A stretch of 64,000 nucleotides of DNA from Phlebopus portentosus (taxonomy: Eukaryota > Basidiomycota > Agaricomycetes > Boletales > Boletinellaceae), in assembly GCA_037892935.1 (NCBI GenBank), contig JAYXKI010000012.1:496001-560000 (forward strand), in the 5' to 3' direction. Positions 404-38,153 of the stretch are shown piece by piece. Below the pieces are notes generated by a model that saw only the letters and a program-made list of their open reading frames with translations, was not told the origin of the DNA and searched no databases. The position numbers were made by a program, and so were the translations under genes. Each line of letters opens with the position of its first letter. The stretch's first letter is position 1.

Positions 404-2689
404 TCAAGCTGCATTAACAATACCCTCAGACCATTCTACTCTGACTTTTCTTGCTGCGTGTTCTTCAGCTAAATCAAATGTCGCTCCAATCCCCGTAGCG
501 ACTACGTTCCCATCAACTAGAAAGAGATGAGTCAGCGACAAATCTCAGATCCTCAGTGGATTCGTAGAAAGGGACAGACAACTGAATGTTGTCTTAAATA
601 TCAATTCCCCAGTGCCTTCAGGCCTCCGTTCTACTGTAGTAGACCATGTTACTCGAGAGGCAAAATGGCTTTTTTCAAGATATTCTTTGAAAATGGGCAA
701 ATATCGGAGTGTATTGAAGTGACTGGGATTCTCGACGTCTGAATTATAACTTTGAGAATACACTCGAGCGACAGGAATGTTGACGTACGTACATAACCTG
801 TGCAAGGCTACAAAGGCAGCTCTTTCCTTAGCCTGTCTCTTCTTACCCGAAGCGACCCCTACTCCATATACTTCACCATTCACTGTCGATGTAATGAATA
901 ATATTATAGAATGGGAAATTGGGTGCTAAGAAACTTGCCCCTGCATGTCACGACATGTTCCGGAGGTTGAGACGAACTGGTGGACTCGCCGTCAACATAT
1001 TTTATTGTAGTATTCGTGACCATAGCAAACTCGTTCAAGATTATTGGGGGAACTAGACAATACTACGCTCAACATGAACCTCAGTACGACTGGCATAATA
1101 CATACTGATACGACGGGCTTTCAAGATATCCTCTAGTGATGGCGGAGGTGGAGATGGAGCCGCTTTCAGCGGGGGCGCTTCTTCTGGAAAATCTACGATT
1201 ACCGGTATTTCGACGCATGGGTAAGATTGTTCAAGACCAGAAAGGAGAAACAAGGCTTTGCTTGCCTTCGATTCTAGGTGGAGTTCCAAGTACTGTCAAT
1301 TCGGAGGATGAAAGAGATCGCAAGCTATCCATGAGAGGGTTCACAGGACTGATCCCGCTTTCGCCACCCTCGCTGGGAAGTGAATACTCCTGTCTCGGGA
1401 AAGCGGCTACCGGAGATACCACGTCTTGCTTTGTGCCGTCGGTAACAGTTTCCTTCCAGAAGTCCGAGCTTGGAAAATATTCGGCGTATGAATACCAGAT
1501 GTGTACATAACTGCTTACCACGCCAGTTCCTCAAGCATACGCATTTGCGGTCTAAAATCCGGGTCCTTCATCCAACATAAATGACAAAACGCAACAATAC
1601 CCGGCCTGTATTTTTCATGATCTGGTCTGGACGCAATAATAGGAAATTTTGGAAGCTCTCCTTGCGAGAGCCTGATGGTCACTTCCGCCTCTATGGCATC
1701 GTAGAATGGCCATTTTCCTGAGAATAATTGCTAGGTGGGATTATTGGAAAGTGCTTCATTACATGACTAGTGTGCAGCTCACCAGAATTGTGCAACCAAA
1801 GCTCCAGACATCGGCAGGCTTGGTGGGACCAATGATGCGAGTAGGGAATTTGAAGTATTCGACAGCGTGCCAGCGATGGGATCGGTTGGCGTCTGTCGTG
1901 GTCACTTCAACTGGTAGACCATCTGTCCCCAACATTCTGGAAAGACCAAAGTCTGCGATTCGCGCTCTGCCATCGCCACCAACCAAAATGTTGTCCTGTT
2001 GTAGACAATACCGTATCACACTTTAGTTAGTTCATTTATGTACTTATCGGCGCAGCATTTACCCCTTTGACGTCCCCATGAGCAATCTCTCTCTCGTGTA
2101 GATGTGATAAACCCTTTGCGGCATCGCGAATCTACGGATGGACTTAAGTTGCGCGTACGAACAGATACGACCTGAGGAGCTTGACGCCTACCACGTCCAC
2201 GAGATTAGCATTTGGGCAGCACCTGAGATACTGCTCCGCCGTGCCCTTTTCCATGTAATCTGCCACCAAAGAAGGTAGCGAATTATTACTTCTGTATAGT
2301 AGTCCGTGAAGTTTCAAAACATTCTCATGATTGAGTGAGGCCCAGACACCAGTTTCCCGATGCATTCTCTATCCACAATTGTCAGTTTCCTCGAGAACGA
2401 AACTGTATTATATGCTCACAGCAATTGATTTATGTCTATCACCCATAGCGAACTTCATCCTAGGTGTCTTCACAGCAAACACAGCGTTTTCGATTTCTGG
2501 TCCGAAAATGGAAGTACAGCATCTGTACTTGTACAGATCTGCATAGCCTCCGCAGGCAAAGGGATTGCCATCGATTTCTTCTAAGTGCGCAGTCAAGTCT
2601 ATCACCTGATGCTCTTGAGATGATACAGAGATGTTTTCAAAGCTTAAAGCATGCGTAGAGGAAGGAGTTGATTGAGATGGAGTATCCAT
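404..2689 (-). CDS. Kinase-dsRBD fusion protein, gene A
   Basis: Predicted multi-exon protein with an N-terminal protein kinase domain and two C-terminal double-stranded RNA-binding domains. The start ATG (2687-2689) sits at the same place as in gene B. Kinase signs in order: nucleotide loop FACGGYADLYKY, beta-3 lysine in FAVKTPR, catalytic loop IAHGDVKG with DNILV in the next exon, IADFGLSRML, and a DVWSFG helix-F motif. HGD replaces HRD, as in many fungal TKL-like kinases. A Ser/Pro-rich linker ending PPPPSLEDI follows. dsRBD1 has NGEVYGVGVASGKKRQAKER; dsRBD2 ends DGNVVATGIGATFDLAEEHA and stops at 404. dsRBD1 keeps the helix-2 lysines, dsRBD2 lacks them. All catalytic residues I can see are present, so activity is likely. 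The ligand is inferred as dsRNA from the domain family only. Confidence 0.8.
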
Positions 2690-3543
2690 GGTCGGGACGC
2701 GGCGATGCTCGTACAAGTCTGGAGGCCTAGGATGAGTCGCCAGATGTCGTTGTTGCATCTTCATCCCAGGCCAATAAGTAACTTCTCACGTTAGTGGAGC
2801 AGAGCGGTATCGAGACCGGTAAGCCGATCTCATCCCGGGGAAGTCCAGCTATTTGCTAATGCCGGGTAAGTACCCTCCTCTGGCGTGGTAGAAGGATCGA
2901 GACGGGGAAACCGCAATGTATCGCGGTGGGAAACTTCCCCTAAAGATGACCACGCAGCTCGTCCACCTTGACGAGGGCTGGTGCACCACGCTATTCCTGG
3001 CGGCGACCGAACAAATTCAACGCCTTAGGCTTCGTCATATAAGTTCTGCTTGTAGGATGAACATTCACAGCATAGAAGGCTAGTTAATATTGAAATTTAT
3101 CCACGTCAACAGCTTTTCGAAATCGCTTTTCATGCGCATCCTATCCTTTCCGAGTATTTGTTATATACTCAGCATGTTGGCCTCGCAGCTGCTGTGCGTT
3201 CGAGGGCTTCTGCGACTTTATGAGTGCCGCAGTCCGAATAGAGGGTTTGATTTCATATAGACGCCCGTACGGAATTAAGTATTGGTCAAAAGAACTGGGG
3301 GCGAATAGTACGTACGAAAATGTGGTGAGGAAGATAAAAGGCACTACTATACGGAATCGCCGGTATTTGGGTTTGGAAGTCCATCAAGGCCCCAACCTGT
3401 GCTGTCGAGATTCGCAGCGCCTTGAATTCTCTCTCTGAGATACTGTAGGCTTCTTTTCTTAGTAGTGAATAATATATTGAAGATCCTTCCACAGCAGTCT
3501 CCAATCCCGCCTAAGCAAGCAATCTATTTTTTAAATCAACGAC

Positions 3544-5908
3544 TCAAGCTGCGTTGACAATACCATCGGACCATTCTGCTTCGACCTTTCTTGCTGCGTG
3601 TTCTTCAGCTATGTTTTCAGTCGGCCCAACACCTACAGCGACTACGTTTCCATCATCTAAGGAAATGAATCAGTGTCAAGTCTCGATTTTTCTGTACTCA
3701 AAAGAAAGGGACGGACACATGAACGTGGCCCTGTGTTCCCATCTCGTTGGGTCGTCAGGGCTTGGACCTGATTGACGACTCCAAGTTACTCGAGAGAGCA
3801 AGTTATTTTCATCAAGATATGCCCTCAAAATGGGCAAGTAGCGGAGGTTGAAGAGAGCTGGGTTCTCGAGGTCTGGATTCAAAAATTGAGAGTGCATCCG
3901 AGCGACGGGAATGTCGGTGTACGTACATAACCTCCGCAAGGCCACCAAGGCCGCCCTTTCCTTCGCTTGCTTCTTCCGACCCGGAACGCTTCCCACCCCA
4001 TACTCTTCGCCGTTCACTGATAGAATATCAAGTTGTAGTAAATCCACGGAAAGAAAAAGTGAGTCGGGGAAAAGAGAGGAAAACTTGCCCATGCACTTCA
4101 TGACATGTGTTCGAAGATGGGAAGGACCGGTTGACTCGCCATCAATGTATTGTATCTTGAACATATGCGTTGTCATAGCGAATTCGTTCAAAATCTCCTG
4201 AGGTGCTAGAAAAGATTCTCAGTATGACGTCCGGTTTGATTAGTATAGTACACACTGATGTGCCTGGAACTCAGAATATCTTCTAGTGACGGCGGAGGTG
4301 GAGAAGGTATTGTTGCCGGCGAGTTCACTGGGGCTGCATTCTCACCATTTGCCTCCGCCTGATCCACAGGAGTATCCTGGGGCGGATTGACTGGGTTCGT
4401 TTCTTCTGGAGGATCTTCAACCACTGGTATCTTGATGTCTAGAGACAGGCTTATTCAAAATCAGAATGCAGAAATAACGCTTTGCTTACCTCCGACTTCG
4501 GGAGGAGTTCCGACTACCGTCGATTCGGATGACGAACGAGAACGTAAACCATCCTCCGGGAGAGGTTTTGTAGGGGTGGTCTCGCTTTCGCCATTCTCGT
4601 CCGAACGGGAAGATTCCTGTCTCGAGAATTCTGAAGACACCGTGTCTTGGTTGGTGCCGACCATACAAGTTTCCTCCCAGAAGTCCGAGCTTGGAAAAAT
4701 AATCGGTGCATGAATACTAGATGTCCACGGGACGGCTTACCATGCTACTTCCTCAAGCACACACATTTGTGGTCTTAAACCTGGGTCCCTGACCCAGCAT
4801 AACCGACAAAAGGCGACAATGCCTGCTCGATGCTTCCCAAATTCCGGATTACATGCGTACGGAGGAAACTTCGGAAGTTCTCCTCTTGAAAGTCGGAGTG
4901 CGACTTCCGGCTCTACAGCATCAAAGAATGGCAACGCTCCCGAAAAAAACTGCTAATAACACAGATTAGACAGGTTCAGTAAAATTGACCAACGTAGCTT
5001 ACTAGCACCGTACATCCAAAGCTCCAGACATCAGCGGGCTTTGTGGGACCAGTTGTGCGAACAGGGGCGGTGAAGTCGAAGTATTCAACGGCATGCCAAC
5101 GACTGGATCGGTTGGCATCGGTCGTGGTCACTTCGACCGGTAAACCGTTTGTTCCCAACATTCTGGAGAGACCGAAGTCTGCGATTCGCGCTCTGCAATC
5201 GCCACCAACCAATATGTTGTCCTATTACGGACAATACCACACCGCATTTTAATTAGTACATTCATGTATTTTCCCGTGCAGCACTTACACCTTTGATGTC
5301 CCCATGAGCAATACCTCTCTCGTGTAGGTGCGATAAACCCTTTGCGGCATCGCGAATCTGTGGATGGACTTAAGTTGAGCGTACAGATATGACTGGAACT
5401 TGACCGCTTACTAGTTCTATGAGATTGGCATCCGTACAGCACTTCAGATACTGCACCGCCGTACCCTTTTCCATGAAGTCCGATACCAAAGAAGGTAACG
5501 GATTATTATTTCTATATAATATTCCATGAAGTTTCAGAATATTCTCATGTCTAAGAGAAGCCCAAACACCGATTTCTCGATGCATTTTCTGTCGTGTGAG
5601 AGTCAATTTCACTGAAGGCGGATGGACAGTAATATATTCACAGAAATCGATTTATCTCGATCCATAACGAACTTCATTCTCGGTGTCTTCACTGCAAAGA
5701 CGGCATTTTCGGCACCTGGATCAAAAATAAAAGGGCGGCATCTATACTTGTAGAGGTCCGCATAGCCTCCGCAAGCGAAAGTAGTGCCATCGATTTCCTC
5801 TAAATAGCCCGTTAAGTTCACTACCTGATTCTCCTGAGGTGATGTAGAGAGATTGGCGAAGTTAAAAGCAAGTGTTGAGAAAGGAGACGACTGAGGTGAA
5901 GTAGCCAT
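3544..5908 (-). CDS. Kinase-dsRBD fusion protein, gene B
   Basis: Tandem paralogue of gene A with the same exon plan. The kinase has FACGGYADLYKY, FAVKTPRMKF (Lys of VAIK), LRHENILKLHG, AHGDIKG then DNILVGGDCRARIADFG, KPADVWSFGCTVL and a C-lobe LPFFDAVEPEVALRLSRGEL. A PPPPSLEDI linker precedes dsRBD1, whose beta1-beta2 turn carries a canonical GPxH (STGPSHLRTHVMKC) and whose helix 2 is GRKKQAKERAALVAL. dsRBD2 runs from YLPILRAYLDENNLLSRVTW to ENIAEEHAARKVEAEW and stops at 3544. Intron 1 (53 nt) joins SIS to KMHRE. The donor before the last exon is GTCCGT, matching GTCTGT in gene A. All frames join, so the gene looks intact. The second copy at 43.7-46.1 kb is badly damaged. Confidence 0.83.
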
Positions 5909-6639
5909 GGGTTGGGACGCGAGAGTGCTCGTACAAATCTGGAGGATAAGTCGCCAGATGTCGCTATCATTGTACCAGCTCCCAGGCCTATAAGTACCTT
6001 CTCACGTCCTTCCATCATAGCGGACCAGAAGACCAGTGTCTAGACCGGCAAGCCGACTCCGTCCCGAAGAAGTCCAGCTATTTGCTAATGCCGCACAAGT
6101 TGTATCCACTGGCGTCCTAGGAGAAGCAAGACGGAGAAGCAAGAAAGCACCGCAATGGTAAACAGCCCCTAAAATCGGACACGCGTCCTGTACATGTAAC
6201 TTGTATGTCCTGATGAATGATGAAGGCTGGCGCTCCGCGTTATGCGTGGTGGTAATTAAACAAAGCGAACTTTATCATTGTCACTTCAAGTTAGGCGCCG
6301 GTCTCATAGGTGCCGCTTACATAACGGAAATAGTAAAAGACGGAGAATCAGTGAAGTCTATCCGTTCGGCATGTTCCAACGGAGAACAAAGGGAAATTGC
6401 ATAGGAAAAAGAGGAAGGAAAAATTATGAAACACGGGATTGGGAAGGAGGCTGGCATCGCGAATTTGACTAGACTTGAAAACCGCAGAATCAGTCCGAAG
6501 TCTAATGCCAGCCAATTCAGCTGGTCTAAATATCAGAGTCGAGTCTGACCATGTTCCATCCACGTCTCTTCATATCGTTTCGTTGACCTGGTGTCAGCGT
6601 CTCCCTTGGATTGATATAAACAGAAAACTAAAACAAAAA
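5909..6639. promoter_or_regulatory. Divergent intergenic region between gene B and the alginate-lyase gene
   Basis: 731 bases between two divergently read genes, so it should hold both promoters. The short open frames here have no recognisable protein features. A TATAAA-like stretch near 6614 is only about 26 bases before the alginate-lyase ATG, which is closer than usual. No other motif is convincing. Confidence 0.5.
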
Positions 6640-8995
6640 ATGCGGTCTTGTCTATTATCAGCGGGACTTGTCAGTCTCTACGCGCTCGGGGTAGCTGGTG
6701 AGCATTCTTCGTATCCACTGAACTTTTGGGAGAATGAACTGAAACGTCACAGCGGACGGAAATGACTGGGTCGACCCTGCCTTTGTATTGAAGAAAAATG
6801 GCATGCCGAATGCACAGAATAGGATCATCAACTTTGCCAAGTCGACAGCGAGTAACGGTCCATGGAGTAAGTCGTTTCATGAGTCTTGGATCAACGTGTT
6901 TTGGCCCATGGCTCAATGATTTGCGACTGCACTTTTGAACAGCCGTTTTCGGTGGTACGACAATATTACCGCCAAACGGTGACAAGCGCGACTACCTAAG
7001 CTGGGCTCCTTAGTAAGTCATAATTGTACCGGAGAGACTAAACCCATAAATCATCTCGCTCTTGCAGTCATTGGCCGAACTGCAATTGGTGCACCGGAGG
7101 CCGTGCGCACCTGGCCACAGGCGGGAATCGGACTGACTCCGAAAACAGCGGCGATGGAAGCAATTCGGACTCGAATACGAGTGCCAATACCTATGACGAT
7201 GGCGCTCCCGAAGACGGCGGGGAAGATAGCGGAGGGGATGATGGAATTAGTGATGATGGAATCACGATTCCTGACCCGTCAGAGGTATATCTGCCTCTAT
7301 CGACATCAACCACAGTCCCTATCGCGCAGAGGAAAATGATGAAGCGCGTCAGGAGCTTCGCGGATTCCGAGCAGCAGGGAGCACTTGTCGCTGACGGGGA
7401 CGCTCCGAACCTTCCTTCTATCTTAGCAACGACTGTCATCCCTGAAGCTGAACCGACATCTACGGAGGATAACGTCGCAAATGGAAGTACCGGTGTACAA
7501 AACGCGAGGAAGACGCAGACGCAGACGCAGCAGCACGCCAAGACAACTGGTACTCCGAAAGGCGAAACGACGCAGAAAGGCGCGGCGACGAAGACAGCTG
7601 GTGGAGGTGGATCCGATTGCACACCATCTCCGACTAAGAGTCTTGCACCTAGTGCCAGTAAGCTCTCCTGATCATTACTACTACTTGCACGTCTCTAATA
7701 ATCTTTCATCAGCATGGACGATGTGCAAATATGTTGTCAAAGACGGTCATGTCAATCCGGACGTTCGCGACATTACGGGAGTAAGCAACGTCGCCGACGC
7801 TGCGCAGTCCATACTCTACAACGCAGCAGCCGCTGTCCTTGCAGGGTCCCAGGATTACTCGCAAACCGCTGTGCAGTTCATCCAAGCGTTCTTCCTCGAC
7901 TCCAAGAATGGTATGCATCCACGCGTCGCATACGGACAGGTTATTCGAGGTCCCGGAACACAAGAGGGACAATATCTCGGGATTATCGACCTTCGCGGAA
8001 TGGTCAAAGTTGTAAACGCAGTTCAGATCATGAGAACGGCGAAAGATCCTGCCTGGACGAGCGCGTTGGACGCTCAAACGGTCAATTGGGCTGCGCAATA
8101 TGTCAAGTGGATGCAAACGGATTCGTTGGGCCAAAAGGCCCTTTCAGCACCCAAGTGAGTCTTGACAGTTCCCCGAAAGTTCTGGCTGACATCTTTGCGC
8201 CATGCTAAAGTAACCACGGCTCGTTTGCGACAAACCAACTTACGGCGGTGAACATCCTCGTCCAAGACCCGGGTGCGGCAGGAACTGCGCTCAAAGCATA
8301 CTTCGCGAATCAATTCCAGGATCAGATAGCTGCTTCCGGCGAACAACCCTTTGAAGCAGTTCGGACAAGGCCATTCCATTACAGATGCTTCAACCTGGAA
8401 GCCATGATCGTAGGTCTCATCCTCAACTTGTATACGACATAACTGATGTCCATTTAAGACAAACGCGAAGCTTGGCGATCAGCTAGGTCTAAACTTCTGG
8501 ACGGCCAAGTCCAAGTATGGCGCCACCATTAAAGACGCACTCGACTTCGTACTTGCGAAAGGACCTGGAAATGAGGATATCGCAGACATTTTCCCTCACG
8601 TCGCAGCGATTGCCGCAGCATACGGCGATCCGAATGGGAAATATGCATCGTATCTCAAGCAGAAAGACCCACGCTATCAAGTTTCCGCATACTACTTCTA
8701 CGACCAGCCGGCTGCTTTGACGAGGGCTCCGACTTCGCCGAAAAGCAAAGCCGAGCAGGAGATACTCGGCTTAGCGGAACAGCTTGAGAATTTTGAAGAT
8801 CTCGCTCAGAGTCTCGAAGCAACGGAACAACCAACGCCTACAAGCCTTCCAATCGCGACACCAACAATCCCCTGGGAATGTCCGGTTGCATTCGCGACGC
8901 AGACGAGAGTGGAGTTGGATGACGGCGTTTATGTGACGTGCGATGAACTGAAGCCTCTTTATGGATATGCAGACGAGGCGGGAGATGATGTGTAG
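6640..8995 (+). CDS. Secreted alginate-lyase-domain protein (PF05426-like)
   Basis: About 669 residues in seven exons (6640-6697, 6753-6866, 6943-7012, 7068-7657, 7713-8154, 8211-8409, 8459-8995). It starts with a signal peptide, MRSCLLSAGLVSLYALGVAG. The first part carries the family landmarks DYLSWAPYHWPNCNWC. A low-complexity insert of about 180 residues rich in Ser/Asp/Gly/Thr follows. The main domain then has VVKDGHVNPDVRDI, SILYNAAAAVL, YGQVIRGPG, the NNHGSF catalytic-type motif and RTRPFHYRCFNLEAM. It is expected to be extracellular and to cleave a uronate-containing polysaccharide by beta-elimination. The real substrate in fungi is unknown, and alginate itself is unlikely. Copy 2 has a 2-base deletion near the end. 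Confidence 0.9.
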
Positions 8996-9074
8996 CACGC
9001 TGACTGAGCGAATAGATCGAAAGCCGTGAATAATGTATAGTACGACATAATACAATAGACATACATGTAGAAAA

Positions 9075-9938
9075 TCATCGGACGAAAAGCTTCTTCCCCC
9101 GCAACGGTCTCGCGGCACCAACTCTGCCAGTCTCTTTCTGGTATTGGCGATATGCTTCGCGCAAGTGGTCGGGCGCCAGAGGACCAGTCTCTCCCCGCCT
9201 TTCTTGCACCTTTCGTGCCTTCTCAACGATCTCCCCAACAAAGACCTTTGAGAAACCTGCTACAATCTGGGCAACTGGAGCGGAAACCTGTGCTCCGAGG
9301 GATTGCTGAATAACCTACGACAAAAGAACATAAGAACAAAGAGAATTTTGGGGGGCGAGACGTTACTTACCCTTCGCACGCCTTGCTTTGGCAAGGCATT
9401 CCGTCTGTACGCCTCGTAACGATCATACTGATCAGGCGAGAAGTTATCCATCAGAACTCTGAGAACCACAGTCAACACGGAAACGCATGGGATAAAAGAA
9501 GCGATAGGCATACTTCAGGTTGTCTTTGGACTGACTCTGCCATGACAATTGCGCAGAGTAATCATCGTCCGCCATGTCAGGAAGCAAGTCTTCTTCGCCT
9601 TCGACATCTTCGTCCATGCCAGCTCGCCCAGAACTCGGAGGAACAGCACCCCCAGATAGCGGATCGGTGAATATGATTGGACCGCTGGTTGTAGCTCCAT
9701 CTTTACTCGCACCTGCTGCATCTGAAGTAGAGGCCTGGATAGGCGTAGCCCATTGAATTGCTGTGGTTGTTGTCCCAGATTGTGAATCTGCGACAGATGG
9801 TGCGGTGCTAGCAGCGCGCGATTTCCTCCCCTTCTTGGTACCTGCAGTTGTCTTGCGACCACCTCCGCCAAGCAATGGTGTCGATGGCGCAGGCGTTGAT
9901 GCTTGTAATGAACTTGTTTGTCCAGGAGGTGAGCTCAT
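9075..9938 (-). CDS. TAF11: TFIID subunit TAF11 (histone-fold TBP-associated factor)
   Basis: Three exons. The N-terminal half is a low-complexity Ser/Thr/Ala segment with an acidic patch ([19 protein letters not shown]). The C-terminal half is a TAF11 histone fold: [28 protein letters not shown], then [38 protein letters not shown] and [20 protein letters not shown]. In yeast and human TAF11 this fold pairs with TAF13 inside TFIID to position TBP. The start [10 protein letters not shown] is the first ATG, and the stop is at 9075. The gene is tail to tail with the alginate-lyase gene (79 bases apart). Copy 2 is intact. Confidence 0.93.
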
Positions 9939-10166
9939 CGTCGTTCGTTATCAAGTGCAGGACGGTCACGTGCTTCTTAATAACTCTAACTTAATTTAAT
10001 GATGAAATCAATCAGTTTCTCGTCAATAATAAAAACTAAAATATACAAGTTACGCCCAAGAAAATGCGATCGAACAAGAAAACTACATGAGTACACAATA
10101 AATAATGCAGTAATATGACGCAAAACACATGAAAGCAAGAATCAGTGCCTGGGCAGCAAACAGCCA

Positions 10167-11302
10167 TTATGAACCATTCATTCTAGAAGAGTAACTAGAC
10201 GTTTCCTGAGGGGTACCATACATGAGCGGAATCTGAGGCTGTTGGATGAGGAATTCAGCTTGCGGACTATCACGAAGTCAGATTAACATCAGCTTCTGGG
10301 GAAACGTATGGCTAGACTGACCCAAGTTGGATTCGAATCATTTCATCCAGTGCTTGCTCTTTCAGTTCCCTTGCTCGTAGTTCTTCCGCACGGACGACCC
10401 GAAGCTCTTCAAGAAGACTCTCATGTTGCTCTAGTGCGAAACGGTGCTTCGCTTTCATGACGAGGTACCGCACCATGGCGGGGGATCGGCCAAAGATCTT
10501 GCCTGTCGCTGGATCCTTGTGCTGCAGGAGATGTTCTGGAAGCGCGTCTTCGCGTTCTTCGTCCGATGTGGAGCTCAGAGCTCCAGGGCTTCTACCTCGA
10601 GGGTTTCCAGAAGGATTGAGATAGTCGGAACGTTCGTCTTGCGGTGTGAATCCTATCCTTTCTTCATCACCCCACATAACCCCAGCACTCAGGTCAGTCG
10701 GAGAATTGCCTTCCACCTTCAACACGGGGGTAACTTCGGTTTCTGCTTCTTCGTCACGTTTTCGCTTACGGCTTCCGCCACGGCCAGGTGCAGGTGGTGA
10801 CATGTTATGCTGGAGACGCATGTGCTTTGCCATCGCATCTGAACGAGTGAAGGACTTGTCGCACTCAGGCAGTGGACATGTGAACGGCTTCTCCCCTGTG
10901 TGAGCCCGAATGTGCGAGATAAGCGCGAAGCGTGATGCCTGCTGTATACCGCGACGAGGACACGTTGACCACTCGCAGGTGTAATTTGATTTGTTCATCC
11001 CGATATGGTCTGGAGGCTTTATTCGTCAGGCACAGCAAAGTTGTCAGTTATGTAGTATCTAGCATACCGTCGTGAATATGATTGATCAGGGCCTGAAGTT
11101 CGGAAAATGGCCGTCTACAGTCAAGCCATTGACATGTTACACTTTCTAGTTCATAATCTCCAATTGGTTCAACGCTGTACACTTCAGCATCATAAGAAGA
11201 ATCATAAGGATCTTGTTCTCCGCCAGCTATGGGAGTGAAGAAAGGCGAGGGAGATCTACCACTGGGCGGGGGCGTAGCACTGCCATGTCTGCTCACAGAC
11301 AT
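10167..11302 (-). CDS. C2H2 zinc-finger protein (GLI/ZIC-type fingers, possibly INO80-subunit Iec1-like)
   Basis: Three C2H2 fingers. Finger 1 is CQWLDCRRPFSELQALINHI; finger 2 begins YTCEWSTCPRRG and ends HIRAHTG; finger 3 begins FTCPLPECDKSF and ends HMRLQHN. The linker HTGEKPF between fingers 2 and 3 is canonical. A basic stretch GSRKRKRDEE could be a nuclear signal. The tail has a conserved-looking block (HLLQHKDPATGKIFGRSPAM) and a Glu/Arg-rich helix. A last small exon after a donor in CTTGGGTCAGTC extends the frame to a stop at 10167; without it the frame would end at 10312. The fingers plus this tail remind me of the fungal INO80-complex subunit Iec1, which is a tentative match from memory. 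Confidence 0.8.
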
Positions 11303-11804
11303 GGTAGATGGTAAATAAGAACTGAAGAAGCCCTTAGCACCTGTCGTTTGACCCCACGCCGCGCACGTGGCAGTCCTTAGGACTGGTATTAAGTAAGAGC
11401 TGATAAAGTGGCGGCTATTCCATCTCTCTCTCCATCAGACATCGCCTCATCGAAAGAAAAGGAGAAGCGGGGAAGTGAAACGTTTTTTACGTCGTTCCAT
11501 ATGCAGGCCGTCCTTGCCGGATTCAAAGGAACAGAAGAAGCCTCGAAATTCGGCTGTGCTTATCTCCTACCCTAGATGTCCTTCTTTACCTAGCCGACTG
11601 TCGGGTATAGGCTCTTAACTTGCTGGGAATTGTTTCGCCGCAATTGAATGCTAGAAGCCAACCTAAATGACGAAAGCGCCTGGAATATTCACCCAACGGA
11701 AGTAAATTGCCTGGATGGAGACTGTCCCTGGGACGTATATGATAAATCTCTACCCGACATCACCGCGCACGCTCTGGCAGATTATGCCCTCATGAGTGTG
11801 CGCC
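11303..11804. promoter_or_regulatory. Divergent promoter region between the zinc-finger gene and kinase gene C
   Basis: About 500 bases between two divergent genes, with no convincing coding exon assigned. An open frame from 11648 to 11830 (start MLEANLNDESAWNIHP) overlaps the start of gene C in another frame and might be an upstream exon, but I could not join it cleanly. Confidence 0.4.
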
Positions 11805-13957: not shown

Positions 13958-14862
13958 CAATTATTTTTTTGGGTTCCCGCATTTACAAATCTTGTCCCTG
14001 GATGTCCCTGTTACAAGCGAAATTAGATATGTCCAGTCCACACTTTGGTCCGCAAAGTAAAACTGAGGCCCTGGCAAATTCATAAATATATGTACACCTT
14101 ATTTTGAAATCCTCAGGTCAAGAGGCCTTGACGTAATTCCTCTGAGAAGGGGCTTCTGGTGTCCTAATCCGGTTCTTCAGGCACACAACGTCACCGTTAC
14201 TCCATCTACAAGTACACACTCCGATCAGACACTGCAACTCGGTTGGCTTACGAAGTCGAGCCAACCTAAGTAGATATACAAGGTTAAAGAACACAATATT
14301 AATGGCTGTGGATTTGGATATTTGGGTCACTTCAGGGCCACTTCTAAACGCGTCTTGAAAAAAACGAGCTTCGTTGGCACTGCCCCCTCGTAAGAATCCA
14401 GGGTCGACACAGTGTGGGCACATGCTGGGCCTTGTTGGCGCCTATTCAGAGTTCAATTGCAGTTCAGTGTATCATTGTATCTCCGCCTTGATGTACGTAG
14501 GGTCTATCGATTTCATTAGAACTGACCTTTAAATTTTGAATCGGAGATTTATCGGCGTATAGATAGCTTCATTTGGATCGGTGATCGGCAACTTCCAATT
14601 ATATACCAGGGTGTGTCACTGGATTCATCGTTCGTTCTCATCCAACTTGTCCAGAAACCAGAATCGTGAGGTTGTCTCATAAACACCTTTCTTTCGTATG
14701 ACCAGCAAGGTGGTCTCCTTATCGTGATTAGCATTTACCTATACTTCTGTCTGCTTAAATCTCGCTTGTTCTCCTTCGTAACGCGCGATCGAGGTCTACA
14801 TTTAACTTCAGCTCCGTTTTCCCGCACTAAGCACAATACCAAGCCGCTACCACCACCTCGAA
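13958..14862. other. Intergenic stretch between kinase genes C and D
   Basis: About 900 bases without a supported gene. A minus frame of 101 codons (14118-14423, starting MCPHCVDPGFLRGG) is uninterrupted and identical in copy 2. The whole area is near-identical between copies, so this is no evidence of selection. No domain is recognisable in it. Confidence 0.4.
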
Positions 14863-17196
14863 ATGGGCTCACCACTAGATGATTTTGACCTCGCCGCGCT
14901 GGTAAACAATATTACCGACAGTCTCGGCGTGGACACACCGCCCGTGTCCTCATCTCCAACAGCTGGCTTTACTTTGCATAAGGCCACAATGGGACGCGCC
15001 CCTGTTCTAGTCAAAGTCTTCAGTGGAGTCCCGCAAGGCTCTTTGACTCCAAGCGAAAGCAGAAAAGTATCTAAAGTGAGCGTCTTTTTAAGAATACCTA
15101 GGCACAACTCATATGTTCTATTGTAGGCCTTTCTCTCTGAACTTGGATCCTGGAAGTTCCAATTCAGTTTAAAGTCCTTCGTAAATATCATCGGGTACAG
15201 TGAATACGTTGATAGTATATTGCCAAGCCCTGTATACGAGCAAACAGAATTGGCAAGGAGGCACCTGAAGAAACAAAAAGATGTGGACCTCTTGGGATTT
15301 GTTCGTTTTCTGGTGTATGTCGATCTCGAGGCCTCGAATTGATCTTTCGCAAATAGATCCAAAAGATAATCGAAGGCGTAGAGATTATCCATCGAAATAA
15401 TGTTGCGCATGGAGACCTCAGAGCCGTCCGTATAAATGATTTGTGCGTCGCCGCATTGTCTGAGTTTTCTCACAGGACAATATTCTTGTTGATTCCTTCG
15501 GTTTTCCGCGGATATGCGATCATGGACTGACGCGGATTATCTGCTTGCTGGACAAACACAAGCTTCGAGGCAAAACGGATGTTGAGCCAGCCATGAGGTG
15601 GATGCCTCCGGAGTATCTTCACCTTGACGATGATGCTCCGTTTATCCTAAGCAAGCAAGGCGATATCTGGTCTTTGGGAATGACAATTTTTGTAAGTTTT
15701 TGATGCCTCGACGCCGTTCTGAATTATTGCACTGCTGTACAGGAATTATGGTCTGGTAATATGCCGTACTATGGAACTCCGGTGGACAGAGTCGCAGGCA
15801 AAATACGTCGAGGAGAATCTCCCATCTTCCCGAAAGTCCTTTTACCCGGTCTAGAAAGCCTGAGAGAAGCGGTCTCCTTCTTGTGCGGTTTGTGCTGGAA
15901 GTCTAACCCTGCAGACCGCAGAACAGCTCCAGAACTTACTCATATCACACAGTTAGTCGTCGATGTTTCAATCTGGTTCTGCATCTTCATTTAACTTTGT
16001 CGAACAGAGAGCTGAGAAAAGGGAATGGGATTCCTTCCATTATCAAAGAATATGAGATGGGGAATAAACGCATGCCGTTCACTTCCAAGGAGGGCTCGAC
16101 GACAAATTCATCCACATTCGCATCTCCAGGAACTCGGACATTTGAAGTTCAAAGCTTCAAAAGTCCTTCGGACGGATACGATTCGGGTTATAACACTACT
16201 TCAGGTACTGATTAAGCGTCCAACTTGTCCTTCATCGCCACCTCACAATACTTTGTAATCTCCATACAGAACCAGATCCTTCCAGAAGGAACGAGGTGAA
16301 GACGGAACCGAGCGAAGTCGAGACGTCAGTGTCGGGTTGGTCCCATTCCGGTCCGCCACAAGGTTGGCCTACAAATGTGCCCGCTCCTCCGCAAGCAGTA
16401 CGTGGTATCGAGCCCGTCCATCAGGCCAAGCTCGATCAGCAAATGGGGAGTTCCACTCAAACACCGTTTAGCGCGTTTCCGCCTCCACCGTCTCCGGATT
16501 CTCCTTTGGGCTCTATTAACTGTAACCTCGTTTCATTCCACTAACTTTGTTCTTATACTCATTCATTCGCGCGCAGCGTGGATGACAGCTCTGCTGAACT
16601 ATAAAGCCAAACACAAGTTATCCTCGTTAGATATCAAGAGGAAATCGTCTGGTGAGGACCACCAACCAACTTTCACGACGATTTGCAGAAGTATGCACGA
16701 CGATCCATCGCGATCCTGTACATATGAACTGATTTGTTCAATTTTAGTCGATGGAAAGGAATACGCACGCTGTACGGATGCAAAGAGAAAAGGTGCCGAT
16801 GAGAAGGCAGCCCGGGATGCATTGACTAAACTCTGTAAGAGTGCAATAACATATGAAACATTTTTAACCACTGATTGTTATTTAGATGAAGAGAATCCAT
16901 CATTGGCGATTGAATCGACTCCTTCCTATCTATCGGTTTTCAAAAGCTATCTGGCAGAACATGACTTGACGGATCGTATCGAAATGAGGTACGTCGCGAT
17001 GGGAGAAGATCATAATCTAACCTGGTCGTGCCACTTATACAGTACGTCTCCTTTCTTCCGAGCAATTCGGAGTAGAAGGTGTTAATTTCTCATGGAAGGA
17101 GACGGAACGTCACTCGCGACTGGACAAGCCGCATCTAAGCAGAAGGCAGCAGAGGTCGCGGCAAGAAATGCGGCGACAAACTGGAACTCCAGATGA
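14863..17196 (+). CDS. Kinase-dsRBD fusion protein, gene D (atypical DHG kinase)
   Basis: Starts MGSPLDDFDLAALV after a good AAATGG context. The kinase N-lobe is divergent: no clear glycine loop (HKATMGRAP), but VLVKVFSG supplies the lysine. The catalytic loop VAHGDLRA continues as DNILVDSFGFPRICDHGLTR after an intron, so the DFG motif reads DHG. MRWMPPEYLHL and QGDIWSLGMTIF mark the activation segment and helix F. A proline-rich linker (PPPPSPDSP) follows. dsRBD1 runs from AWMTALLNYKAKHKLSSLDI, with GEDH in place of GPxH, to VDGKEYARCTDAKRKGADEK. dsRBD2 has SYLSVFKSYLAEHDLTDRIE and GDGTSLATGQAASKQKAAEV, with the stop at 17194. The kinase may have weak or altered activity. The frame is broken in copy 2. 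Confidence 0.76.
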
Positions 17197-17479
17197 AACG
17201 TACTCATTTCTTTGTACCATACTTTAGGTAACACTACGTTTGCGTGTACTTGTCCGTATTCAGTATTTTGTCGAGTCTCTTACACTCATTAATTTACATG
17301 TACGTATGATCGTCGAAGTGTCTGTCACACGGATACCTATTGTTGCCCCTACTGGTGATGTCGTCAAATTAGCAGATCACGTGCTTAGTGATGGTCCACG
17401 CGATTTATTTTGGAGTCGCTGGCCGTTCTTTTGAGCTCGTAAAGTCATGGCGGTCTAGCTAGCGAATGCTTTCTCTCTT

Positions 17480-20400
17480 ATGACAGACTTCAAGTGGACG
17501 CATTACTGGAAGCAGATTCAGGCGGCTCTCATAGCTGGTCACTGGAATTCATCTTGTCCAGGAAAGACACCCAATGGCACCTTGCTGCCCTGGTCTGAAC
17601 TCTTCCGCAAAGCCAAGAAACATTCAAAGCATTCAGGTATTTGAAGATGTTGTTTTTCGCCGTGTTGAAGCTCTGATTCTCTGCTTGCTTGGATGTCAGA
17701 TGTGCCGGAGGCGGCGCTTCAAACTTATTTTCTCTCGTTACTGTTAAGCACCACAAAGGCTGCTGCGCGCGATGTCGAGGAAAAGAGCCAAGTAGATGGT
17801 GATGGTTTTGGTTTGGGAGATGAATGTGTCCTTCTGGAAGAAAGATGCGAGGATGCGTTGAAAGTCTACGAAGACCTGCAACAGTTAAATTCTTCAGACG
17901 AAGTACGTGTCAATCCTAGATGTTTTGCCGGGGTGATTCTCAATATCTGGTCCTCCAGTATGTAAGGCAAGCATTGGCATATTTCGCGTACGCTCTCAAT
18001 CGGCCTTCGGAATGTCTTGAATACGTCTCAGGTGTCGCTTTCGGAGAGCAGCTGCTATCCTCGAACCCTAGTATTTTCGTCACGTCCGAAGATGAGAAGA
18101 TAGAGAGATTGTCACAACGGTCAAGTCATTCAGCACCTGTGGAAGTTTCGGATGACAGCGTTTGGGTATTCATGGAGGCGCTTCGTAGTGCCTGTCTGGA
18201 AGGCAAGTGATTCAATCTTTCCCCTGACAATTTAGCAACCTGATGGGTTTTGATTTGTAGGCATGGCTCATGAACGTATATCTCCAGGTTCTCCCTCTCA
18301 AGCTTTAGCCTCTTATGACAAGGGAGTTCATCTTCTTCAGGCATTCTCTGTTCCGAAATCTCCTCCACCTCGTGCAGGCAGGGCAAGCTTTGAATCTTTC
18401 AACAAGTACACCGAATTATGGCGGTGGACCGAGCGGCTCTTGTGGCGCAGTGTCATTCTCTCTGCACAACACAGGAGTATCGAATCAATTATGCCTCTCT
18501 TCCAAACCTACACCTTCCACAGCGTACACTGGCCTCCTAGTTTTCAGCCAGATCACCGTTCAACAATATTAACGTTTTATTTACGTGCGCTTATTCTACT
18601 TTCGTCTCAATCAAACCAGTATCAAGCAAAAGCTGCTTGGACTCATGAAATGCGCAATGTGGTACACGAGTACCGCGCGGTCTTGGGCGCATCAACGCAT
18701 TTCCCGACCGCTGGTGAACACAACGTGCTTGTGGAAGAATTCGTTGATTATTGTGTTGCTGGTTGGGAGGCGGGTGGAGCAGTATCGGAACAAGCCTCTT
18801 GGGTAATTGACGTACGTTATTCTCCTCGACTGAGAGGGTAGGTCACTTAATCCAACTTGTTCGTTTTCGAACTTTTTGAAGGTTTTATGGTGGGCGACTC
18901 GACTCACTTTCAATTCACCGCGTGTGTTGCGACATATGTTCCGGCTGCTTCATGTGTCTGGCGACAATGAGCTAGCGAAACGCGTCTTACGCTTGTACGT
19001 GCAAATTGTCAGGAAGGCTCGCGAGACTGGCACAATGAATGACCAGGGTGAGGACACTCACGACACTTCGACAACAGAATTGGATGTGCGATGGGTACAA
19101 ACGCTGATTCAGGGTGCGCGGATGTTGTGTAGAATTCCAGGGGGTGTCAAAGAGGCTCGTGAAGCGGCCGAACTCGTGGCATATGCACGAGATCGTGTTG
19201 CAAATTTGAGTGACGAGCTCGTAGCAAGTGTAGACCTCGCCGACGGTATTTGCATAGCTGTTCTTGCAATAAGAGGTATCGCTTGTGTATTTTCTCTTAT
19301 GGACCACATACTGACTGTTCCTTAGAACAAGAGCCTACGACGAGAGGCCCTCTATTGTCCATTTCTGTTGATTTGCTGCTGCGCGCGGTTGAGCGGAATC
19401 CGACGCCTTCTGCATGCTTCCATACCGCCATCGCGCTCTCCCGTCCCATTCCTGAACGGAATCTTCAGAAAGCTGTCGAGCTGTGCCGACGAGCTGTGGA
19501 AGCAGAGCCAAAAGATGTACGGTTTTGGCATCTTCTTGCACTTCTCGCTGCCAAACAAGGGGAATGGAAGAAGGCAGAAGGTGTTTTACAGGCTGCTCTT
19601 GAGATCGTAGAAGATGTAGAATTTCGATCACAGGAAGAAGAAATAACAAGAAACGGGGTAGTTTCTAGAGATTTCGCGGCTACAAATGGACACCAGACAC
19701 CTACTTCTACCATACCTTACCCCGAAGGCAATGGAATAAACGGTTCGGCTGTTCGAACAGATTCCCTACCGGATACTTTGATTGATCCAGATGCCCGATC
19801 CCTTCCACCTGCCGCGAGCCTTTTGCAGCCTATACCAGATCACCCTCCTCCGACTCGACGTCAGCTTTTCGAGCATGTCCTCCAGTTAAGAATGACGCAA
19901 ATCGCCATTGCGGAGCTTGTCGAGGGTCCGGAGAGTGTTGAAGCATGTTGGCTGGAAGTATTTGAGTGGTATTCCCAAAGACGGGATACGATCCCGCAAG
20001 TCGGTAAGTCCATATCGCGCGGTGTCTACAGAGTTTCTATCTCAACATGTTAAATTGCAACAGGCTCAACAAGACCTTCTTCGGATGCTCGTCGTACTCC
20101 CACTCCTGCATACGCTGAAAGCGCAGCGCGTGGATCTTTGCAGGCACCAAGTGAAGTCGCGGAAGGGTCCTCGCTCAGTGTTTCAAACAATCAGTCTACT
20201 GCTTCTACATCAGTGGAAACTGTCACGGTCCGATCACCTATTCGTTCTTCAGCGGATCGAGCCACGGAAGTGGTTCAATCGGGGAGAAGGAGCAAAGAAA
20301 GAAATTCCACCGAATCGCAGAACAGCGATCGTGACAAGAAAGGAAAACGAGTACAACGGATGCTTAAAAATCAGGTGCACAAGCAACAGGCTCGGATGCA

Positions 20401-21285
20401 CACGATATCAAGGAAGATTGGACATGGGGTCGTGAAGGGCAGTATGAATTTGTACCGGTCAAATTCTGCTCCAGGTATGAAAGTCTTCTGTGACCAGCCT
20501 TCAACTCCGTGTCTCTTACACGAACGTTCTATCAGATCTCCATTCAATGTTAGTGCATGCGGGTCCTTATCAGGCTTCATCTATACACTCTCGAAGGCGC
20601 ATCTCATTCAGCTCAAGGGTACCTCGGTCAGAGAGAGGGCGCGAAGCATACTCTCCACCACCATCCCCACCTCCGCCTGCTCTTCTTCCCACGACCACAC
20701 AAGAGAGTTCACACAGCATTGGAAACGCTCGAGAAAGAAGACTACTCAGTGACTTATGGTTGATGTCGGCGGCGACGTTTAGGCGCCTGGAGAAGATCGA
20801 TCAAACACGAGGCGCTATCCAGGAAGCAGAGACGCTCGATGAAGAGAATGAAGCTGTGTGGGTGCAGGTGTGTGAGAAGTTCCCTCTGGCTTCTTAAGTT
20901 ATTGACAAGTACTGCCCTGCAGCTGGGTCTGTACTTCTCTGCACAGGGCGAAGAGAGCAAGGCGATTGAAGCCTTTCAGAAGGCACTGTTCATATCACAA
21001 GATGACGTACCCGCCACTATTCATCTCTGCAACTTATATCTCACTTCCCGATCACCTCTCATCCGATCCGATTCGTACGGTGCTGTAGATATCGCTGTCG
21101 GAATGTTGGAAGCAGTTACTCGAGGATCGGGCTGGGATGTAGCGGAAGCGTGGTATCTGTTGGCTAAAGCTTACAATATTCAAGGCCGAAAAGACCGTGA
21201 GAGAGAATGCCTGATGTTCGCTCTTGGACTCGCGGAAGTACGTGGTGTACGTGACATAGGCACCGCCATTGGCTGGTCCCTGTGA
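17480..21285 (+). CDS. TPR-repeat protein related to Ypp1/TTC7 (PI4-kinase scaffold)
   Basis: Large multi-exon gene starting MTDFKWTHYWKQIQAALIAG. Helical-repeat segments are seen at RHMFRLLHVSGDNELAKRVL, at KAVELCRRAVEAEPKDVRFW with a following GEWKKAEGVLQAALEI, and at LGLYFSAQGEESKAIEAFQK. The last exon, ending RDIGTAIGWSL, has AEAWYLLAKAYNIQGRKDRE. These match the order of the Ypp1/TTC7 family, which with Efr3 recruits the Stt4 PI 4-kinase to the plasma membrane. A Ser/Arg-rich low-complexity segment precedes the last TPRs. The assignment rests on the TPR tail and overall build, so a more distant TPR protein remains possible. Copy 2 carries several frame-breaking changes. Confidence 0.72.
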
Positions 21286-21944
21286 ATTCTTATCCGCGGA
21301 TGGTATATTACACTACTGGCTTCGGAACGATACCAAAGTGAGTAGCGTCCCTGAACCTGTGTACACTGGCAGATGCGAATACTCACATTTGCTTTAGAAT
21401 TCTATAATGACACCTAATTTGATACTTGATTGCATCAACGCCTCGTTACTACCGAACTTAGTGCAGTACTTATCATATCGGATCACTAGACTTTGTTGGC
21501 AGTATAATTCATCAAGGAAGGAACGTTCGAGAATGGAAAGAATCTAATTTCGTCCAAACTCCCGTGGCTTGCTTCTAGGATCAAAGGTGCATTATCCTCA
21601 TGTCCGAGTGACTATTGACGCCCAGTGCTTGGGTTCGAGAAGCTCTGGTCCTTAGAAAGCAGTGCGCTGATTTGGGGTGCTTGACAATGACTAGTCAATA
21701 TCACCGAACTCATCAAATTTGTTTCGAAGTCGGCTTCGATCGGTCTGGCTACTGCTGTTTTGCTTACCGCACATGCAGTGGGTTATGGACGTAAAGTTAC
21801 TTGGTCTGTACATGTTTGCTTGGGCGTCCAACGCCAGGGCGGCCAGCACCGGTTCTAATTCAAGTATGTCAACATCAGATCAGCGTCTCTTCAGGCAAAT
21901 GTATATATTCAAAGACTCAGAAACAGTTCTGACCTATCATCGTT
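21286..21944. other. Intergenic region upstream of kinase gene E
   Basis: About 660 bases. An open plus frame (21719-22030) contains a hydrophobic run (RSVWLLLFCLPHMQW) and overlaps the gene E start in another frame. I could not link it to the kinase and see no other feature. Confidence 0.4.
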
Positions 21945-24116
21945 ATGATGGGTCACGTCGCTCACCCTGCTCTTTCCCAATTCCCGTACGCCTTCGATTA
22001 TACGAACCGACTGACGAAAGAATCATGTGAAAGGAAGGGCTATGGTGGTTTTGCCGATGTATATCAATTCCGCAATCCTCGAAACGGATTGCTTTATGCG
22101 GTCAAAGAAATTGTAAATGCTCCGCGTAGTCTTACATTGCTTGAGGTGAGCGATTGCAATCGCGGATGCTTGTCAGGTATCGCTAATACGATTGTAATAT
22201 CAGGTAGCAAAAATAGAATATGACATATGGCACCGTCTTAGACATCCGAATATTCTTCAATTAGAAGGAATATACTTGGCGCCTCATACTCCAATTCCCA
22301 GTTTTGTTACTCGTTGGCAAGAAAACGGGCGCGTCAAGAATTATGTTCAAGGCAAACCCGAAACGGATTTTCTCGGTTTGGTAAGTATTTTATCACAGTT
22401 GGGTTTCGATTTCTGACCATTTCTGTCTAGATAGAGGACGTAGCAGAAGGCGTCACCTATCTTCATGGCAATGATATTATTCACGGAGATCTGCGGGCCG
22501 TGAGTACACGTTCTCCAAAATGTCATGAATCATGACACTCTTTTCCTTTAGGCCAACATCTTGATATCAGACGATTGTCGAGCACTAGTTACGGATTTCG
22601 GAATTTCTAAACATGATCCTGGTGATGGAATCACACTCTCTCGAGCTCGCCAAGGAAACTGTCGCTGGATGGCTCGTGAGTTCTTCGTGGCTGGTACCGC
22701 TCGTCGGTCCAAGGCAAGCGATATCTGGATGTTTGGTATTGTTATGCAGGCAAGTTGCATCGTTATTGCAACAAGTTCGGTATTTACCACAACCGTTGTT
22801 AGGAGATACTCTCTGGGAAGAACCCATATTATTACATAAGCAATGAACGGCTCATCGAGAGTATGATTGAAAATGGGGAGCTCTCTGAGTTCCCAAATGC
22901 TCAGCATACCTCATGGAGAAAATTTGACGATCCTGTACAAGAGCTTAGGCTGCGTTATTGCGCATCAGAGCCAACAGATAGACCAACGATTACTTCAGTA
23001 CTTCAAGACATCAGGAAAGTCCTCTTCAATGTTGCTAGTTTCGAACTTGCATTTACAGACCTCCAGAACATTGAGGAACAGGTTTCCGAATATTTCCTCC
23101 TTTGAGAATGTATTAAATATAAACTCTGGATCATCTGCGACGTTTGTTGAAGGGAATGTGTCGACTAGTGCTCGTTCAGAAAGTGCATCAGAGACCGATG
23201 AAAGCACGATACGTCTTTCGGAAGGTTTCTCCTATCTGAACTTATCAACAAACTCTAGAACTTCTAGTGCCGACAGTTCTAGAACAAGCACAAGTCCGAC
23301 CCGAGGATCTGCGACCTTGGCATCCAACGCGGCTCTAAATGGTTCGGGCACCACCAGTCCGAGACGCTTGCAAGATCGGAACGAAAGAAATATGAACCCA
23401 GGAAGCTCACATGGTAACGGTGAGCAATCGACGCCAAATTATGTGACGAGTGAGTCTTGTTCAATAATGTATGCATTCATGGCAGAACTGACCAATTCGT
23501 GTGATTCAGTTGATCTCGATAATGAACTACACAATTATATCGCGCGCAAGGGACTGACCTCCCGGTTTACTGAGACTCAGTATCCGACCGGTCCCGATGA
23601 AATGAGGACGTGGCATTATGTAATGAAATGTCAATTATTTTAGCCCTTGTCCCGGCTGTCCGTCTGTCTAACTCGAGTTTTTCTTTTGTCGGCAGTGGAT
23701 GGTAAAGTCATAGCCACAGCCAAGGCACGCCAGCTTAAACAGGCAAAAAAAGAAGCAGCGAGGATAGCTCTCGCAAGATTACGTTCGAGTCTCCGTTTAT
23801 TCAGAAGCCGCTCAACGTATTGATAAAGCAAACAGACAGCGATACTAAACCACCTACTCCTGTGAGCAACCCCTCCCAATCAAGTAGTCCACCCGAACCG
23901 GACACGTACCGAAAGGAAGGATTACCTCATAATCCCACATGGATTTATACCCTTTACAGTTGAGTAGTCTTCGGTTCTGAGGGTGTCTGTCACAGCTGAC
24001 GGAATATGTTGATATTCGAAGATAAAGGAAGGATGGTGGAAGGACGCGGAAAGAATAAGACCGAGGCTAGACAAAACGCGAGGTTCCAACTCACTTTATC
24101 CCCAAGCCGTTCTTAG
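21945..24116 (+). CDS. Kinase-dsRBD fusion protein, gene E
   Basis: Starts MMGHVAHPALSQ. First exons are 21945-22145, 22204-22380 and 22431-22499, with the fourth starting at 22552. The kinase has KGYGGFADVYQF, LLYAVKEIV, LRHPNILQLEG, DIIHGDLRA, an intron, ANILISDDCRALVTDFGISK, CRWMAREFF and KASDIWMFGIVMQ. The following intron has a GC donor (CAG|GCAAGT). The C-lobe ends TDRPTITSVLQDIR. A long Ser/Thr-rich linker leads to dsRBD1, with LHNYIARKGLTSRFTETQYP and DGKVIATAKARQLKQAKKEA. dsRBD2 has EGLPHNPTWIYTLY and MVEGRGKNKTEARQNARFQL, and stops at 24114. Its last 21 bases overlap the 3' end of the convergent glycohydrolase gene. Near 23050 a GTCCTC donor is needed to keep the frame. Confidence 0.78.
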
Positions 24117-29848: not shown

Positions 29849-30231
29849 AGTCTTCTGACGAATTTTACCTCGCATTTTCCTGCCTCCGGAGGTTTCTGCC
29901 CTGTTTTGTTTAATACCCTCGCATTCGTGTGTACCATTTTACCCCGCCCTCCGTTTCGACGATCCTCGGACTAAGCTGCATTCTTTGGACTAAGTTATGT
30001 ACCGGTATCCACACCTTTATGTCTTGAACGGATTTGTACTGTTTCTGTTGTTACGCATGATACTGCATTATTGGGATGTTTACGTTACATTAAATACATT
30101 TATCTTTTAACCAAGTGGCGGAATGGAGGGTAATTTGAGCCTCGGATATGACGTTAGGTTACGAATGATATAGTCAACAACGGAGGCGTCCAAGCCTCTC
30201 GCCACGAGCACAAAGACTTCGTGCCCTGCGC

Positions 30232-30259
30232 CACCACCACCACCACCACCACCACCACC
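30232..30259. repeat. CAC trinucleotide microsatellite
   Basis: About nine uninterrupted CAC units followed by imperfect ones. On the minus strand they read as poly-glycine in an open frame (30107-30313) with no other protein-like feature, so I see no gene here. Confidence 0.9.
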
Positions 30260-30360
30260 TCTACCACCATTGTCGTCATCAGCTGTGCCTGCATCATCGC
30301 AAGGAAGTATCATCGTGCTAGCCTCGAGGCTGTAAGACCGCCAAGCTGGAGGTTTACTGA

Positions 30361-38151: not shown

Positions 38152-38153
38152 TA

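Follow-up and report, generated by a model that had tools for sequence, protein, structure and literature searches.

Five clustered genes in the mushroom Phlebopus portentosus are predicted to join a tyrosine-kinase-like domain to tandem dsRNA-binding domains: candidate dsRNA-responsive kinases

Introduction

Paired double-stranded-RNA-binding domains (dsRBDs), one of them divergent and possibly of adaptor type, are found in TRBP, Staufen, ADAR and RNase III, none of which is known to carry a kinase domain. In vertebrate PKR (EIF2AK2), a kinase and two dsRBDs share one polypeptide. The dsRNA-binding motifs of PKR lie N-terminally and its kinase C-terminally (PMC12394161). In Agaricomycetes, kinases of the tyrosine-kinase (TK) or tyrosine-kinase-like (TKL) type have undergone lineage-specific multiplication, as in the FslK group and the TKL expansions treated in PMC3937382 and PMC2838846; the term 'dsRNA' is absent from the main text of the former, and 'dsrm' and 'RNA-binding' are absent from that of the latter. 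In Magnaporthe oryzae, dsRNA of any sequence elicits Hog1 stress signalling and reactive oxygen species, and no fungal dsRNA receptor is named in the sections of that report available to us (PMC11762700). Here we analysed a window of 64,000 nucleotides from Phlebopus portentosus (the whole stretch C12:496001-560000, in a genome of 38.4 Mb in 23 contigs), which holds five clustered genes, A to E, each predicted to encode a kinase followed by a linker and two dsRBDs.

A-E share with PKR the union of a kinase and two dsRBDs in one polypeptide. They differ in that the kinase comes first and the dsRBDs are C-terminal in all five, in being fungal, and in forming five clustered paralogues; moreover, their kinase is of TK/TKL type (B and E compared), whereas that of PKR is of the eIF2alpha-kinase type. 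Judged by both kinase type and dsRBD position, A-E are not members of the PKR group. The original prediction, which had called them PKR-like in reverse order, stands for the fused, reversed order (from gene structure, Pfam matches, selection and independent annotations) and not for the kinase. Because the kinase domain is TK/TKL rather than eIF2alpha type, the resemblance to PKR would be convergence. By analogy, A-E may be PKR-like in working principle. Compared with the FslK group and the TKL expansions, A-E add fused tandem dsRBDs, and TRBP, Staufen, ADAR and RNase III are sequence relatives of their first dsRBD.

We recognised no description of a fungal dsRBD kinase in the open-access literature, a scope outside which most subscription papers and bioRxiv preprints fall, nor in the available parts of PMC11762700, PMC12394161, PMC3937382, PMC10197012 and PMC2838846. 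With moderate confidence we favour the reading that A-E form a family of protein kinases which respond to dsRNA and which evolved independently; their RNA binding, activation, trigger and target are predictions. A kinase and tandem dsRBDs in one polypeptide would be a direct, testable candidate for a dsRNA receptor in mushrooms and, if the reading is true, would represent the PKR principle reached convergently, reversed in domain order and built on another family of kinases.

Results

Five gene models with a kinase and two dsRBDs

The exons of A-E were joined by hand after reading three frames, with splice sites picked by hand. All five spliced frames were free of internal stops. The features are listed by window position; P0001 to P0007 are annotated Sanghuangporus relatives described below.

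404..2689, minus strand: gene A, kinase, linker and two dsRBDs, 10 exons, 586 amino acids (splice model; Pfam kinase E = 5e-33, dsrm E = 1.3e-13 in two stretches)
1519..2689, minus strand: A kinase, exons 1-5, with AVK, HGDVKGDN and DFG (splice model, Pfam, alignment)
784..1041, minus strand: A dsRBD1, ends approximate; KKRQAKERAA kept, SSSQ in place of GPxH, GC-AG intron inside (splice model, Pfam)
404..714, minus strand: A dsRBD2, start approximate; phase-1 intron inside (Pfam, profile comparison)
3544..5908, minus strand: gene B, kinase, linker and two dsRBDs, 10 exons, 618 amino acids (Pfam kinase E = 3e-30, dsrm E = 1.4e-11; annotated relatives P0001-P0004)
4741..5908, minus strand: B kinase, exons 1-5, with AVK, HGDIKGDN and DFG (splice model, Pfam)
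3918..4203, minus strand: B dsRBD1, ends approximate, with GPSH and KKQAKERAA (Pfam; PDB relatives ADAR2, RNase III and PKR)
3544..3848, minus strand: B dsRBD2, start approximate, divergent, without a Pfam match (profile comparison; element order in a low-confidence model of the relative P0002)
11805..13957, plus strand: gene C, kinase, linker and two dsRBDs, 10 exons, 551 amino acids (Pfam kinase E = 2.8e-30, dsrm E = 2.6e-9)
13328..13584, plus strand: C dsRBD1, with GPPH and KKLAQEEAA (splice model, Pfam)
13647..13957, plus strand: C dsRBD2, weak at 14.2 bits (splice model, Pfam, profile comparison)
14863..17196, plus strand: gene D, kinase with glycine loop lost and DHG, linker and two dsRBDs, 10 exons, 611 amino acids (Pfam kinase E = 2.4e-24, dsrm E = 4.7e-11 in two stretches)
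16577..16840, plus strand: D dsRBD1, end approximate (splice model, Pfam)
16916..17196, plus strand: D dsRBD2, start approximate (22.7 bits alone, cut-off 23)
21945..24116, plus strand: gene E, kinase with HGDLRAAN, linker and two dsRBDs, 9 exons, 579 amino acids (Pfam kinase E = 3.7e-35, dsrm E = 4.4e-15 in two stretches; relatives P0005, P0006 and P0007)
23019-23058, plus strand: E intron of 40 bases, doubtful (splice model)
23509..23816, plus strand: E dsRBD1, start approximate (Pfam; the same domain of P0006 best matched in the PDB by PKR, E = 1.2e-6)
23867..24116, plus strand: E dsRBD2, shortened (splice model, profile comparison)

Introns measured 50-73 bases, with the 40-base intron of E as the sole exception. 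Two earlier models were discarded: A had been read as a pseudogene stopping after the kinase, and it showed a full frame once the GC-AG intron was spliced; two introns of C, of 35 and 39 bases, were exchanged for introns of 62 and 60 bases with better branch-like sequences by eye, upon which the whole-protein dsrm score of C rose from 32.4 to 37.9 bits.

A profile search for both domains, as the original prediction had proposed, placed all five proteins above both cut-offs: the kinase (PF07714/PF00069) matched with E = 2e-22 to 4e-35 and the dsrm domain (PF00035) of the same protein with E = 2.6e-9 to 4.4e-15. Five genes with a kinase, a Ser/Pro-rich linker and a dsRBD in one protein had been predicted from the letters alone, and this was borne out, as were the named marks (KK.QAKERAA in both A and B, GPSH in the latter, GPPH in C, and DGK strands in D and E) and the conserved HGD loop, Asn and DFG or DHG. 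Of the two C-terminal dsRBDs further claimed for each gene, dsRBD1 was matched by Pfam in all five, and dsRBD2 was supported by a profile comparison between the two domains (probability 98%, E = 1.5e-13); dsRBD2 proved divergent, its Pfam match being weak in C and absent in B.

A kinase domain of the TK/TKL kind

In the alignment, read by eye, the residues with known roles in kinase catalysis were present in all five genes (the catalytic Lys, the helix-C Glu, the Asp of HGD, the Asn and the Asp of DFG or DHG). Besides the loops of A, B and E given above, the catalytic loops read HGDIRGGN in C and HGDLRADN in D. A and B share 74% kinase identity, and the remaining nine pairs share 25-37%. Comparison with solved structures covered the kinases of B and E. 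The nearest to B include EGFR, Eph, RIPK1, LCK, HCK and ASK1 (best 60 of 256 PDB matches) and the nearest to E include EGFR, Eph, BRAF and ITK (best 60 of 268); in both sets the relatives are TK and TKL kinases plus a few others, and eIF2alpha kinases are absent from them. On these comparisons of B and E, the kinase of the cluster is of the TK/TKL type and not of PKR's kind.

dsRBD1 is canonical and dsRBD2 divergent

Whole-protein PF00035 scores were 37.9-56.5 bits against a cut-off of 23, and the best stretch in each protein was dsRBD1. By eye, the GPxH site of dsRBD1 reads GPSH in B, GPPH in C, GEDH in D and GPDE in E, and helix 2 is Lys-rich in A-C and weaker in D and E. A second PF00035 stretch (E <= 0.1) was present in A, D and E; for A and E the Pfam evidence for dsRBD2 comes from the whole protein. 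Tested alone, dsRBD2 scored 22.7 bits in D and 14.2 bits in C, and that of B gave no PF00035 match. In all five, by eye, dsRBD2 keeps the helix-2 alanines and lacks both GPxH and the Lys-Lys RNA contacts. On these sequence features dsRBD1 is canonical and dsRBD2 is divergent.

Among PDB entries, the dsRBD pair of B was best matched by ADAR2 (6.6e-6), then by RNase III and PKR (0.003). The E-type dsRBD1, taken from P0006 of S. weigelae, was best matched by dsRBD1 of PKR (E = 1.2e-6 for the chain), with weaker matches to TARBP2 and Staufen at E = 0.008 and 0.049, respectively.

Introns split every dsRBD, and a six-frame search mostly shows half domains. Genome-wide, 23 PF00035 matches were found (E <= 10), 13 of them inside C12:495-561 kb, where five fall in a second copy of the cluster and two belong to a pair of dsRBDs lying to the left of A. 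A chance match was considered and ruled out, given the half-domains found exon by exon in the unspliced frames and the clustering of 13/23 matches at this place.

Probably one gene rather than two neighbours

We weighed the fusion against the alternative that modelling has united two neighbouring genes of the same strand, one for the kinase and one for the dsRBD pair, which were duplicated as a unit. Four introns of the kinase (alignment columns 96/97, 161, 184 and 262, all phase 0) are shared by all five genes, as are the phase-1 introns of dsRBD1 (column 552/553) and dsRBD2 (column 660). A phase-2 intron at columns 333-337 ends the kinase in four of the five genes, E deviating; the introns of the linker differ from gene to gene, and one more intron separates the dsRBDs in C and in E. 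Since the intron places match in 5/5 although C, D and E share a kinase identity of only 25-37%, the kinase and the two dsRBDs probably descend from a single ancestral gene, and the intron layout looks older than the divergence of the paralogues.

The ratio of nonsynonymous to synonymous substitution rates (dN/dS) was then compared between A and B by part, with ranges giving 95% bootstrap limits: 0.15 (0.10-0.22) for the kinase, 0.40 (0.23-0.66) for the linker and 0.28 (0.13-0.50) for dsRBD1. The dsRBD pair taken jointly gave 0.40 (0.25-0.65) and evolves faster than the kinase. By this measure purifying selection acts on the kinase, linker and dsRBD1 between A and B in one frame; the linker ratio below 1 implies that the linker too is translated in the frame joining kinase and dsRBDs, which argues against two genes.

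The same order and strand, with the parts close together, recur in all five paralogues, even with C, D and E kinases only 25-37% identical; B relatives are annotated as joined in three species, and P0005, a relative of E, reads on from the kinase into the linker. For two genes speak the hand-chosen splice sites, the dsRBD pair left of A with no room for a kinase, and two annotations: P0007, which one record of S. baumii gives as a kinase alone, and the E-type P0006 of S. weigelae, given as the dsRBD part alone. In E itself, kinase and tail are out of frame unless the 40-base intron is removed.

Relatives in Sanghuangporus

P0001-P0004, annotated proteins of three Sanghuangporus species, each combine PF07714 and PF00035 in one protein (4/4); their source names are 'kinase-like protein' and 'hypothetical protein', with no described function. 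They are 74-80% identical to B across the dsRBD region. P0001 (Sanghuangporus baumii) is 89% identical to B over a 370-residue C-terminal query, the differences being mostly of splicing by eye. Also by eye, some of the four models leave an intron in place or omit a piece of an exon. Three protein searches returned Sanghuangporus matches only, as 4 of 980, 1 of 243 and 7 of 7992 scored candidates, the last search scoring only candidates that shared most words. Seven distinct relatives result, for which the precomputed Pfam list shows kinase and dsrm in four, kinase only in P0005 and P0007, and dsrm only in P0006; the dsrm score of P0005 is 18.3 bits, under the cut-off. The fused domains were found again in three species of one genus, and nothing beyond it was returned by the word-based search. 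Absence elsewhere does not follow, because the same searches failed to return relatives of C or D even from Sanghuangporus; with C, D and E at 25-37% identity, relatives beyond this genus are to be expected.

Within the P. portentosus genome, no other kinase-dsRBD gene was recognised at the eight loci (with 1.5 kb flanks) that cover the ten remaining dsrm matches, whose translations were read by eye without a kinase profile. From motifs we take these loci to be RNase-III-like, helicase-like and small dsRBD genes, with one tandem-dsRBD gene. The latter (C19:77749-80865, minus strand) has a Pro-rich linker resembling that of D, and the upstream pieces searched gave no Pfam domain.

Discussion

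The preferred reading and what weighs against it

If A-E are dsRNA-responsive kinases, dsRBD1, with its GPxH loop and Lys-rich helix 2, would grip dsRNA, and dsRBD2, having lost its RNA contacts, would assist in pairing or in contacting a partner. When several such proteins sit on the same duplex, their kinase domains would come together and phosphorylate each other, and the activated kinase could then switch on a stress, growth-arrest or cell-death programme. Such dsRNA-driven clustering with trans-autophosphorylation appears the likeliest mechanism and, on the sequence, somewhat favoured. The trigger would likely be dsRNA from mycoviruses or transposons. Since the kinase lies outside the eIF2alpha-kinase family, eIF2alpha is probably not the target; a stress mitogen-activated protein kinase route is one possibility. 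Multiplication of divergent paralogues is common among defence sensors, and we counted it in favour of dsRNA-responsive kinases, along with the response of Magnaporthe oryzae to dsRNA and the best PDB match of P0006 dsRBD1 to PKR. A stronger proposal, to which we give somewhat less than even credence, is that these are dsRNA-sensing immune kinases of mushrooms, built from a TK-like kinase and tandem dsRBDs independently of vertebrates, and that the cluster is a family of mycoviral dsRNA receptors and the receptor so far missing behind the sequence-independent responses of this lineage to dsRNA.

Several observations weigh against this reading. At the level of the models, GC donors occur in four introns (A has two, B and E one each) of genes spliced by hand, and the annotated P0007 of S. 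baumii stops after the kinase, so that E of this strain is perhaps broken between kinase and tail. Among the domains, the D kinase has lost the glycine-rich loop and reads DHG, dsRBD1 of A has lost GPxH, and dsRBD2 alone is without significant constraint between A and B (dN/dS 0.59, 0.31-1.10). Some dsRBDs bind proteins only. None of eight neighbouring open reading frame (ORF) pieces searched was an obvious defence gene, and no relatives beyond Sanghuangporus appeared in the three protein searches, which required shared 5-residue words. AlphaFold performed poorly, with a mean predicted local distance difference test score (pLDDT) of 35 for P0002 and 44 for P0006. Residues 519-601 of the P0002 model show the helix-strand-strand-strand-helix (alpha-beta-beta-beta-alpha) order in dsRBD2 at a pLDDT of about 33-60, and the P0006 model shows a partial dsRBD fold. 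Foldseek matched the low-confidence P0002 model to tyrosine kinases (best target-normalised template-modelling score about 0.4 among the matches listed, root-mean-square deviation above 12 A) and to no dsRBD among the 50 matches listed; the low-confidence P0006 model gave no match at E <= 0.001. These models are too poor for a verdict on the fold.

Other explanations

The dsRBDs of genuinely fused kinases might instead be protein adaptors or RNA docks in RNA interference (RNAi). In place of detecting foreign dsRNA, they would deliver the kinase to Dicer, Argonaute or folded RNAs of the cell, which it would tune. We regard this as unlikely, though deserving of attention: none of the five genes has RNA contacts in dsRBD2, a trait shared with adaptor-type dsRBDs; the genome is rich in Piwi-domain loci (77 exon-level matches); and the E-type dsRBD1 has TARBP2 and Staufen among its weaker matches in the PDB. 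However, the residues of dsRBD1 that contact dsRNA are kept in B and C, and D and E keep part of them.

It is distinctly improbable that the kinases act in mushroom development or non-self recognition, like the FslK group, with dsRBDs answering cellular structured RNA. The E kinase alone does give 92 exon-level matches in the genome, the cluster's own included, yet the kinase changes more slowly than the dsRBD pair, and tandem dsRBDs are unusual in developmental kinases. Two adjacent, co-duplicated genes we consider very improbable on the evidence given above.

A second copy and the surroundings

The cluster is followed by a repeated block that was absent from the original prediction:

40150..64000, plus strand: second copy of window 1-23794 (A'-E'), 98.3% identical, with frame-breaking length changes

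It belongs to a head-to-tail duplication of window positions -722..39432 and 39431..78397, about 40 kb each (C12:495278-574397). Positions 25975-39432 are 99.96% identical to their copy, and the first 6 kb (the A/B part) hold 232/263 substitutions and 83/108 insertions or deletions between the copies. Exons with a length change not divisible by three number five in A', eight in B', three in C' and two in D', where two exons changed by -2 and +1 with no substitution at all; E' has one, besides three exons cut at the window end. Ten cluster genes instead of five were considered, and the second copy, nearly identical outside the A/B patch yet frame-broken, was not counted. We take it for either an error of the assembly or a duplication of very recent date.

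The dsRBD pair left of A (C12:495035-495454, minus strand) is probably kinase-less, because under 1 kb remains to the A stop. The left breakpoint of the duplication (C12:495278) falls between its halves. Further left, C12:446001-492136 is densely packed with repeats, most of them 0.5-6.5 kb long and roughly 85-98% identical.

Four of the eight neighbouring ORF pieces gave Pfam matches (alginate lyase, C2H2 finger, TPR and ADP-ribosylglycohydrolase); the last (PF03747, E 1.4e-6) lies at 24748-25038, adjoining E on the opposite strand. The exon-level Piwi (PF02171) matches fall in about 36 places genome-wide, counted by hand (for example C4:262141, C6:513044, C12:408507 and C1:2306632), and several groups score identically, which points to almost identical Argonaute-like genes scattered through the genome, as though a mobile element had spread them.

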